From Pelagibacteraceae bacterium AG-337-G06 (GTDB taxonomy: Bacteria > Pseudomonadota > Alphaproteobacteria > Pelagibacterales > AG-422-B15): a stretch of DNA of 64,000 nucleotides. The DNA lies in the NCBI GenBank assembly GCA_003282175.1, contig QBZX01000003.1:1-64000 (forward strand). Direction: 5' to 3'. The notes below the pieces were generated by a model. It did not search any database. It saw only the letters and a list, made by a program, of their open reading frames with translations, and had not been told where the DNA came from. This document shows positions 22,566 through 25,282 of this stretch, in pieces. The position numbers were made by a program, and so were the translations under genes. Position 1 is the stretch's first letter. Each line of letters starts with the position of its first letter.

Positions 22566-22642
22566 TGGTTGCGGGGGTAGGATTTGAACCTACGACCTTC
22601 AGGTTATGAGCCTGACGAGCTACCAGACTGCTCCACCCCGCG
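22566..22642 (-). tRNA. tRNA-fMet (CAT), initiator
   Basis: A 77-nt cloverleaf with encoded CCA. The acceptor stem has the unpaired C1-A72 that marks bacterial initiator tRNA. The anticodon loop is CTCATAA. The anticodon stem is TCAGG/CCTGA, so the three pairs beside the loop are A29-U41, G30-C40 and G31-C39, not the canonical three G-C pairs. In most alphaproteobacteria this tRNA directly follows 5S; here it lies about 2.5 kb downstream of 5S on the same strand, beyond ugd and the PhyH gene. Confidence 0.97.
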
Positions 22643-22884
22643 ACACTGCTTTTCTTGGCCTTTTTTCGTCACTGGTTTCATTTCACTATATTCCTGAAAC
22701 GAACTTGCTACAAAAACTCTTCGCCTAAAGACTTATAAATAAAGGACACTTAGGCAAACCCTCATAAAATTTGCTCCACCCTTAATTCAGTTATGTCCAG
22801 GTAAAGTAAAAATAACTTACACGAATAGGAAATATAGTCAAATTGTTAGAATGCTTCTCTCAATTTTAAATTTTATAAATAATA
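22643..22884. other. Intergenic leader upstream of tRNA-fMet with two hairpins
   Basis: About 240 bp without a gene. Read on the minus strand, it contains a 9-bp stem pairing 22720-22728 with 22750-22758 (one G-U) and a 6-bp stem pairing 22675-22680 with 22695-22700. It must carry either the tRNA promoter or the processing region if the tRNA is made as part of the rRNA/ugd/PhyH transcript. I recognise no known small-RNA family (no SRP Alu-type or tmRNA features). Confidence 0.4.
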
Positions 22885-23781
22885 TTATACGTTAGTATAT
22901 ATTCTTCTATTTTTTCCCTCTACACGTGACTTATTAGATTTGGACTTGTCTACTCTTGTATTATTCACTTTATTTTGAGATAACATTTTGTCAATAAGAG
23001 TCTTTTTCTTATTTCTTTTTTTTATTAGATAACGAAGGGATATTCTAAAATTCTCTTTTTCTCGTTTTGCCAAAGCAGATCCATGAAGAGTATTACTGGT
23101 CCACATATAAACTTGTCCTGCTTCACCAACTAACATTTCTTTTTTAAATTTCTTAAAGGTTTTATTATCTGAGCTCACTTCAAGAAATTCTTTATCTTTC
23201 GAATTTCTAATATTATGAGGGTAAGGTAGGCAACCAAGAGTATGACTCTTTTTTAATATATGGAGGGGAGACATATACTTGTCTACTTTATTTAGATAAA
23301 TATACATTGTAATAAATTTATTACTTTTATTATTCCAATCTATTGAGTCCATATGAAAATCTGAGCCTTTAAAATAAGTGACATCTCTATATTCTTTTTT
23401 TACATACGAATTTAGATTAGACACATAATTTCCTTCAATTAATTTTTTTAAATAATTTGGGAGCCAACTTTTAGGAACTGCAACTACAAATTTAGCCAGC
23501 ATGATTTCATATTCATCACCGAGAATTTCCGATAAAATTGCTTTAATCCTTGGATTCTCATCGATGAATTCTAAATTAACTTTATCAACTAAATTCTGAA
23601 CACCTTTCCCAGGGTTAGATTTTGACATTTGAGGTTTGTCATCTTTAGAAATAAATAGTTTTTTACCCCAGGGCCTATCTTTTTTTAATGTATTAAAAAG
23701 TTTTCTGCATTCCTTTTGGTTTAATAAGTCAGTAAAACTCACAAAACCATTCTTTTCAAATGCATTTAATTTTTTTTTCAT
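22885..23781 (-). CDS. Phytanoyl-CoA dioxygenase (PhyH)-family Fe(II)/2-oxoglutarate oxygenase
   Basis: 298 residues of double-stranded beta-helix type. The iron facial triad is H143-x-D145 (DFHMDSID) with H233 (NTLHGSA), and R246 (FRISLRY) is placed to bind 2-oxoglutarate. The last 40 residues are lysine/asparagine rich and low in complexity. PhyH proteins in polysaccharide loci hydroxylate small molecules or sugar substituents; the substrate here cannot be named. It lies between ugd (137 bp upstream) and tRNA-fMet, on the same strand as the rRNA operon. Confidence 0.8.
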   Translation of the reverse strand: MKKKLNAFEKNGFVSFTDLLNQKECRKLFNTLKKDRPWGKKLFISKDDKPQMSKSNPGKGVQNLVDKVNLEFIDENPRIKAILSEILGDEYEIMLAKFVVAVPKSWLPNYLKKLIEGNYVSNLNSYVKKEYRDVTYFKGSDFHMDSIDWNNKSNKFITMYIYLNKVDKYMSPLHILKKSHTLGCLPYPHNIRNSKDKEFLEVSSDNKTFKKFKKEMLVGEAGQVYMWTSNTLHGSALAKREKENFRISLRYLIKKRNKKKTLIDKMLSQNKVNNTRVDKSKSNKSRVEGKNRRIYTNV

Positions 23782-23918
23782 AAAGTCTACTATCTCTAGC
23801 GAAATATATTATGTTAAAATTAGAAAAAAGATATTATTTAAAAAAAGAGATTTTATATTCAAAAATGTTAATAATGTAATGTTTTTTTTGAATTTTTTTC
23901 TTACTCCATAAGATTCAG

Positions 23919-25091
23919 CTAATTCTTTTGGAAAAGATCTCTGGAATATACTTTATCGAGAACATGATTTAAATTATCTGATAGCCTATTTGCAATAATC
24001 AAGTCAGATCGAGCTATGAAACTATTTAGATTAGATACAACCTCTATATCATTAAAATAGTTTTTATTAATGAACGGTTCGTAAAGTATAACTTTAATTT
24101 TCCTTCTTTTCAAATTATTGAGTATGTCTAGAACAGCACTTTCTCTGAAATTATCTGAACCTTCTTTCATAATTAATCTATATACACCAACTGTATCTGG
24201 ATGCTTATTTAAAATTGACTTAATTACAAAATCTTTTCTTGTTTTGTTTGCTTCTACTACAGCTTTTATAATATTATTTGGTATCTTATTAAAGTTATCA
24301 AGCAGTTGCTTTGTATCTTTAGGTAAGCAATAACCTCCATATCCGAAAGAAGGATTATTGTAATAATTGCCAATTCTTGGATCAGCGCTTACGCCTTGTA
24401 TTATTTTTTCAGAGGATAATTTCTGTATTTCCGCAAAACTATCAAGTTCATTAAAAAAAGATATTCTCATAGCAAGAAACGTATTTGAAAAAAGCTTGAC
24501 TGCTTCTGCTTCTTTAGACTTCATTTTAAATAATTGTATATCTTGTTCTGAATAGAAAGAGCAATCTAATAACATCTCACCAAACTTAACTGCTTTTTTT
24601 GACTTGCTTCCTATTACAATTCTCGAAGGATAAAGATTATCATAAAGTGCCTTAGTTTCTCTTAAAAACTCTGGAGAAAATATTATATCTGCTTTATTAA
24701 ATTTATTTCTCATTTTGTCAGTAAAACCTAAAGGAATAGTTGACTTGATTATTATTAATCCTTTTGAATTAATTTCTAAACAATCTGAAATTACTCCCTC
24801 AACTGTTGATGTATCGAAAGAACCAGTCGTTACATCATAATTTGTAGGAGTTGCTACAATGATAAAATCAGCATTCGAATAAGCTTCATTTTTGTTTATA
24901 GTTGATTTTAGCTTAAGTGGTTTGTGTAATAGAAAATCTTCTAACTCAGCGTCTTTGATCGGGGATTTTTTATTGTTTATATTTTTAACGCGATCTTTGG
25001 AAATGTCTAAGGCAACAACATCATATTTTTGAGCTAGTAGAACTGCTAAACTAAGCCCCACGTAACCTGTACCAACGACACAAATTTTCAT
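23919..25091 (-). CDS. ugd: UDP-glucose 6-dehydrogenase
   Basis: 390 residues, the length of the short bacterial form. The NAD-binding GTGYVG is at 7-12, SPEFLRE at 139-145, K199 lies in AEAVKLFSNTFLAMR, and the catalytic cysteine C255 is in GGYCLPKDT. It oxidises UDP-glucose to UDP-glucuronate for acidic polysaccharide. The ATG is only about 45 bp beyond the 5S processing stem, with no U-tract terminator between, so it may be transcribed by read-through from the rRNA promoter. No ribosome-binding site is evident before the start. Confidence 0.92.
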   Translation of the reverse strand: MKICVVGTGYVGLSLAVLLAQKYDVVALDISKDRVKNINNKKSPIKDAELEDFLLHKPLKLKSTINKNEAYSNADFIIVATPTNYDVTTGSFDTSTVEGVISDCLEINSKGLIIIKSTIPLGFTDKMRNKFNKADIIFSPEFLRETKALYDNLYPSRIVIGSKSKKAVKFGEMLLDCSFYSEQDIQLFKMKSKEAEAVKLFSNTFLAMRISFFNELDSFAEIQKLSSEKIIQGVSADPRIGNYYNNPSFGYGGYCLPKDTKQLLDNFNKIPNNIIKAVVEANKTRKDFVIKSILNKHPDTVGVYRLIMKEGSDNFRESAVLDILNNLKRRKIKVILYEPFINKNYFNDIEVVSNLNSFIARSDLIIANRLSDNLNHVLDKVYSRDLFQKN

Positions 25092-25134
25092 ATGTAAACA
25101 ATAAAGTGCAAAGAGTAATTGTAAAGTGACAATA

Positions 25135-25282
25135 ATTTCACGTTTAGTAGACCTGGCAATGTCCTACTCTCCCATGCCTTAAGACAAAGTACCATCGGCG
25201 CTGGAGCCCTTAACTTTCGAGTTCGAAATGGAGTCGCGTGTAACCTCTCCGCTATAACCACCAGGTCAACAAAACGTGAAAT
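25135..25282 (-). other. 5S precursor processing stem
   Basis: The 11 bases at 25135-25145 (ATTTCACGTTT on the plus strand) are the exact reverse complement of 25272-25282, enclosing 5S with a few bases to spare. This is the expected double-stranded RNase target around a 5S precursor. The right arm overlaps the outer 23S stem arm, so the two structures are mutually exclusive or sequential. Confidence 0.6.
25150..25267 (-). rRNA. rrf: 5S ribosomal RNA
   Basis: About 118 nt bounded by the terminal helix GACCTGG/CCAGGTC, with the conserved CGAACTCGAAAG loop region and the GGGAGAGTAGGACATTGCC 3' half. It follows 23S by about 90 nt. Perfect 11-nt complementary flanks (25135-25145 with 25272-25282) would form the precursor processing stem. 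Confidence 0.95.

Follow-up and report, generated by a model that had tools for sequence, protein, structure and literature searches.

The locus raises the question of why surface-polysaccharide genes stand between the 5S rRNA gene and the initiator tRNA gene (tRNA-fMet), and whether they were inserted into an operon that was formerly intact. The window, that is, the whole stretch of 64,000 nucleotides that was analysed, belongs to the genome of Pelagibacteraceae bacterium AG-337-G06 (G000). It was compared with other genomes of its own family (f1), with genomes of the Pelagibacter family (f2), and with alphaproteobacteria outside SAR11.

The rRNA operon and its neighbours in the window

On the minus strand of the window the order of genes is 16S-Ile-Ala-23S-5S-ugd-PhyH-(242 bp)-tRNA-fMet, as the original prediction had it. 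The 16S rRNA gene (28507..29995, Rfam RF00177, 1578.5 bits) is followed by tRNA-Ile(GAT) (28315..28392) and tRNA-Ala(TGC) (28223..28298), both located with ARAGORN, then by the 23S rRNA gene (25359..28094, RF02541) and by the 5S rRNA gene (25151..25265, RF00001). The latter is the final conserved element ahead of the island. The 5S gene is bracketed, in positions 25118-25282, by an inverted repeat ATTTCACGTTT / AAACGTGAAAT, which is likely a processing stem.

The next gene on the same strand is ugd (23919..25091), coding for a nucleotide-sugar dehydrogenase of the UDP-glucose 6-dehydrogenase type (TIGR03026 NDP-sugDHase, 326.5 bits with a cut-off of 189.8). It is followed by a gene for a PhyH-like dioxygenase (22885..23781, minus strand), an assignment which is weak although it lies above the Pfam cut-off (23.4 versus 22 bits). 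The tRNA-Met(CAT) gene itself occupies positions 22566..22642 of the minus strand (ARAGORN), at a distance of 2,508 bp from 5S. Its sequence, CGCGGGG...CCCCGCA-ACCA, contains a C1/A72 mismatch, the mark of an initiator tRNA, and the gene is accordingly that of tRNA-fMet. In G000, which is 93% complete, it is the single match at E<=1e-10; matches occur in 125 of 147 genomes, always one per genome. Convergent with it on the plus strand is gmd, GDP-mannose 4,6-dehydratase (21542..22564, TIGR01472, 447.1 bits with a cut-off of 415), which ends 1 nt from the 3' end of the tRNA.

The polysaccharide genes run on past tRNA-fMet to position 1, which is the end of the contig, as had been predicted. The portion of the island within the contig thus spans positions 1..25131, with tRNA-fMet inside and the far border outside the contig. 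Positions 5204-19005 hold genes of the pseudaminate type of nonulosonate synthesis: PseB, PseC and PseG score above the NCBIfam cut-offs and a NeuB-like synthase below them, and the C-terminal part of a 675-residue protein is an aminotransferase.

Position of tRNA-fMet and gene content across families

The usual arrangement in alphaproteobacteria is as the original prediction described it. In 27 of 35 non-SAR11 genomes, by hand count, tRNA-fMet lies on the same strand within 700 bp downstream of 5S; the 35 are those with both genes on one contig among 113 searched, the other 78 being without one gene or having the two on separate contigs. Greater distances also occur outside SAR11, about 25 kb in G153 and G253 (family f9) and 7-9 kb in G148 and G250 (family f4). 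Partial copies of the tRNA-fMet 3' part (query 31 or 33 to 77) recur among class-level genomes, for example G222, G193 and G153, and resemble attachment sites of mobile elements.

In the window's family the 23S-5S gap is 84-97 nt in 30/30 genomes, and tRNA-fMet is found 1,319-26,348 bp past 5S in all 20 genomes where a single contig carries the two, in inverted orientation in two of them. Genomes G008, G029, G035, G036, G042 and G044 are not among the 20, since their 5S region is masked; judged from the strands of the peptidase and tRNA-fMet genes, the tRNA is inverted in G036, G042 and G044 also. In the Pelagibacter family 23S and 5S are split and lie 20.9-61.9 kb apart (13/13), and tRNA-fMet is inverted relative to 5S in 83/83 genomes at a median distance of 4.7 kb, on the opposite side of 5S in G057 and G078. 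It adjoins trcR, named from one member, on the same strand in 10 of the 18 loci read. One weak 23S row, that of G131 (76/77), was omitted from the spacing count.

A spacing of 500 bp or less between 5S and tRNA-fMet occurs in none of the 20 f1 genomes and none of the 83 f2 genomes. Since none of the 20 has it, the split predates f1, and tRNA-fMet is an internal landmark of an island of 34-78 kb rather than the end of a 2.5-kb piece. The separation of 5S and tRNA-fMet is old and fixed in f1.

The contents of the interval vary, as the term hypervariable in the original prediction implied: between 1.3 and 26.3 kb separate the two genes, and the genes differ even where the core peptidase has 83-88% amino-acid identity to that of the window. 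The ugd gene lies between 5S and tRNA-fMet in 13 of the 20 genomes, directly after 5S in seven. With the 17 other ugd genes compared, that of the window has no more than 46-71% identity, while the core peptidase is 83-88% identical within the near group of 13 genomes, so the favoured position of ugd holds divergent alleles. A suspected broken ugd in G012 was rejected; an intact gene stands right after 5S. The PhyH-like dioxygenase is specific to the window's genome within f1. In 52 other f1 genomes no ortholog was found, and the only two hits were partial (E about 4e-4, 24-28% identity). Much of the island content is lineage-specific.

Not all of the island is young: G018 and G025 belong to different core groups, and the right sides of their islands are largely collinear with each other at 65-77% nucleotide identity, about the level of the core, rising to 83% in the final 19 kb of the comparison. 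Among genomes at least 90% complete, tRNA-fMet was detected in 8 of 12 from f1 versus 90 of 94 from f2, a difference consistent with the island, and tRNA-fMet with it, dropping out of assemblies.

Borders of the island and comparison with the SAR11 hypervariable region

Beyond the 3' end of 5S, the identity among 23 f1 genomes in successive 10-nt steps is 0.76, 0.57 and then 0.29. The similarity is lost about 20 nt past 5S, which places the border in the window near position 25131. The stem flanking 5S may be the reason for this short conserved tail. The far end could be read in G002, G020 and G025, where the order is Wzy_C ligase, IMPase, DUF1329, tRNA-Val(GAC), FGase, abhydrolase, pntA, pntA2 and pntB. 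In six f1 genomes 34-78 kb separate the tRNA-Val gene from 5S; in G008 and G041 it lies 8.1 and 10.3 kb past tRNA-fMet. Comparing G002 with G025, the proteins coded just left of tRNA-Val have 65-83% identity, apart from one small protein at 99%, and those to the right 94-100%. Judged by these identities, tRNA-Val acts as a border. In examples from f2 the far end reads tRNA-Val, 5S, pntA, pntA2, pntB, often transaldolase, and then tRNA-fMet. The islands of the two families thus occupy one slot, from the rRNA operon to tRNA-Val and pntAB.

The published hypervariable region HVR2, or O-chain biosynthesis cluster, is described as lying between 23S and 5S (PMC2217521, PMC11898729). The f1 island resembles it, as these accounts give it, in its surface-polysaccharide content, its place beside a single rRNA operon, the slot facing pntAB and its hypervariability; however, 5S here remains next to 23S, and the island encloses the initiator tRNA gene. 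The likeness drawn in the original prediction, with the break one gene further on, is a good one. The island starts at the 23S end of the operon, just past 23S-5S. It carries ugd, gmd, PseB, PseC, PseG, a NeuB-like gene and others. It ends at tRNA-Val and pntAB in the relatives G002, G020 and G025, the contig of the window stopping short of that point. The 23S and 5S genes do not enclose it, both lying at the same end in 30/30 f1 genomes. A strict use of the published definition, with 23S and 5S as flanks, does not cover the window's island, which is the surface-polysaccharide island of the SAR11 HVR2 slot, having 5S at the opposite end and tRNA-fMet inside. The SAR11 island was already known; the place of 5S and the enclosed tRNA-fMet are added here.

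In SAR11 subclades IV and V the rRNA operon is described as not split by the island (PMC7318151). The f1 genomes likewise keep 16S, 23S and 5S together, but the island is still attached, directly past 5S. The f1 family may be subclade IV. The survey of O-chain clusters, as described, took 23S and 5S as borders and omitted clades IV and V (PMC11898729). The present comparison adds a family where such surveys would miss the SAR11 surface-polysaccharide island, and makes an unsplit rRNA operon a weaker ground for excluding a lineage from the order.

A relocated O-chain cluster near tRNA-Val and tRNA-Met is reported for genomospecies Ib.4 (PMC11898729). It is similar in being a SAR11 island near these two tRNA genes with 5S elsewhere; according to that account (PMC11898729) it still follows 23S and has moved about 330 kb, whereas the f1 island keeps the old slot and has tRNA-fMet inside. 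Replacement flexible genomic islands are described as exchanged through homologous recombination in the flanking core DNA, and for the Pelagibacter example the rRNA operon was likely exchanged too, with a peak of SNPs in pntB (PMC4033161). The same route of exchange may apply to f1. The difference is the essential tRNA gene inside the island; the term "tRNA" is absent from the main text of that paper (PMC4033161). No account of an initiator tRNA within the SAR11 island was found in the open-licence literature searched.

Variable position of tRNA-fMet and proposed exchange of the island

The position of tRNA-fMet within the island ranges from one gene past 5S (5S-ugd-tRNA-fMet in G010) to a place next to the conserved block on the right (G008, G035 and G041), and it is different in nearly every f1 genome compared. 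In this sister family of SAR11 the sole detected start-tRNA gene lies inside the most changeable region of the chromosome. At 31 f1 loci the identity of the 77-nt tRNA is 1.00, and that of its flanks is 0.30-0.44, with 0.32 expected from composition; the nearest 10 nt are slightly higher. Loci G033b and G036 were omitted from this set because their cassette is common to them and G007.

The explanation that we consider probable is that a free-standing 77-nt tRNA-fMet gene is embedded in the polysaccharide island of the HVR2 slot and moves place within it, as cassettes are exchanged and the gene keeps private promoters. The interval between 5S and tRNA-fMet would be the first compartment of an island that reaches from the single rRNA operon to the tRNA-Val(GAC)-pntAB block; this island starts about 20 nt past 5S and not past 23S, and tRNA-fMet lies in it at differing places, sometimes inverted. 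Cassettes with tRNA-fMet aboard would be swapped by homologous recombination in the conserved borders, a process that fits published work on Pelagibacter (PMC2217521, PMC4033161). The tRNA gene, severed from the rRNA promoter, would be driven by promoters of the sigma-70 type, and transcription of the rRNA operon could continue into ugd and other co-oriented first genes. Of all this, the comparison shows the shared slot, the two types of border, the changing place of tRNA-fMet, its unconserved flanks and one cross-group tract that runs through it.

The case for private promoters comes from the upstream sequences. The motif TTGAC occurs at -80..-25 of tRNA-fMet in 18 of the 31 f1 loci, against a mean of 1.3 and a maximum of 5 in 300 shuffles (first-order Markov resamplings); the control counts at the same loci were 0 downstream and 1 on the antisense strand. 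Random intergenic 55-mers have it in 120/1890 cases and the sequences upstream of island features in 26/236, with the tRNA-fMet windows counted in. In 7 of 23 f1 genomes the gene upstream of tRNA-fMet faces away across a gap of 80-138 nt, so a promoter is to be expected in the gap. The excess of TTGAC suggests private promoters. The motif is lacking at 13 of the 31 loci, the window's included, and the mean best promoter score at tRNA-fMet, 9.19 versus 8.69 in shuffled sequence, is only slightly higher. In the window the best match within 110 nt upstream is a weak candidate, TTGTAG-17-TATAGT (22685..22713, minus strand), with 8 of 12 positions; it is below the 9-of-12 threshold of a separate scan and hence absent from it. 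Read-through from the rRNA operon into ugd is possible: no terminator was found between 5S and ugd, which says little because shuffles yield only 1.2 over the whole 2.9-kb stretch.

Horizontal exchange is suggested by a comparison of G036 with G033, which belong to different core groups. The lysC locus, which served as the core comparison because searches for rpoB gave nothing in G033, G036 and G025, is about 73% identical in nucleotides between the groups where alignable and 93-98% within them. Upstream of 16S the two genomes are 77.3% and 71.5% identical, and in the island 91.0-94.7%. The island of G036 is also similar to that of G007, at 86.5-99.2% per comparison window. To either side of the inverted tRNA-fMet the identity is about 92%, with no step there, and it climbs to about 99% some 6 kb further along. 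Only one cross-group tract with higher similarity in the island than in the core is firm (core 71-77%, island 86-99% per comparison window); its left border is masked, and its right half in G033 is on a short contig without core genes. The comparison of G036 with contig C2 of G033, which covers the left side only, is independent of contigs G007:C23 and G033:C13. Because the cross-group similarity runs through tRNA-fMet, the gene appears to travel with the island, and we read the tracts as putative horizontal exchange of the island with tRNA-fMet aboard, in more than one event.

Contig C23 of G007 and contigs C2 and C13 of G033 share about 20 kb at 99.6-99.8% identity, although the rpoB locus of G007 groups with the relatives of the window (88% nucleotide identity) and G033 is of the other core group. 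This stretch reflects either a very recent transfer or contamination; the latter is possible for G007:C23 and G033:C13 because there are no core genes in the parts read.

The same tract bears on an alternative in which tRNA-fMet is itself the crossover point, the compartments 5S to tRNA-fMet and tRNA-fMet to tRNA-Val being exchanged separately through its 77 identical bases. Such a process would account for a left compartment of 1.3 to 26.3 kb, and for G018 and G025 being collinear on the right while their left sides measure 21.8 and 3.2 kb. However, the clearest exchanged tract crosses tRNA-fMet without a change of identity, and 77 nt is a short target; this alternative is unlikely.

Many genomic islands insert at the 3' ends of tRNA genes, and an integrase-driven island at the 3' end of tRNA-fMet was therefore weighed. 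Fragments of about 45 nt from this 3' end, resembling attachment sites, are present in other alphaproteobacteria, and the HVR2 of HTCC1062 as published contains an integrase gene (PMC2217521). In contrast, tRNA-fMet gives a single match per genome in 125/125, partial copies longer than 13 nt are absent from the 45 regions examined, and insertions occur on both sides of the gene. The PF00589 integrase-domain matches listed for 53 f1 genomes, when compared by eye with the island stretches examined, all lay outside them, and the usual pair is located elsewhere. With neither a duplicated tRNA 3' end nor an integrase in those stretches, an attachment-site origin is disfavoured and seems quite improbable.

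A recent, discrete 2.5-kb insertion between otherwise adjacent genes agrees with the confinement of PhyH to the window's genome and with the adjacency usual in other alphaproteobacteria, but it is barely credible when none of the 20 f1 and 83 f2 genomes has that adjacency and ugd is widespread between the two genes. Chimeras of assembly or whole-genome amplification, conceivable where many relatives are apparently single-cell or metagenome assemblies and conserved rRNA could wrongly join contigs, are a scarcely tenable source of the varied positions and inversions, as the pattern recurs within contigs of 20 separate assemblies and the inverted tRNA-fMet is no artefact of a single assembly, given that G036 shares it with G007 at about 92% identity.

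If cassette exchange with a mobile tRNA-fMet is the correct reading, the oddity is an essential tRNA gene, present in one copy and with no conserved neighbours, that is repeatedly re-housed in exchangeable DNA and apparently keeps a promoter. A tentative and somewhat doubtful extension would make tRNA-fMet an essential passenger: every incoming cassette must carry its own tRNA-fMet and promoter, so that the island could be replaced and not lost. Each change of coat would then also swap the gene that starts protein synthesis.

A related block of genes is found to the left of tRNA-fMet in G018 and, mirrored, to its right in G031, and the neighbour that adjoins tRNA-fMet is the same gene in both.
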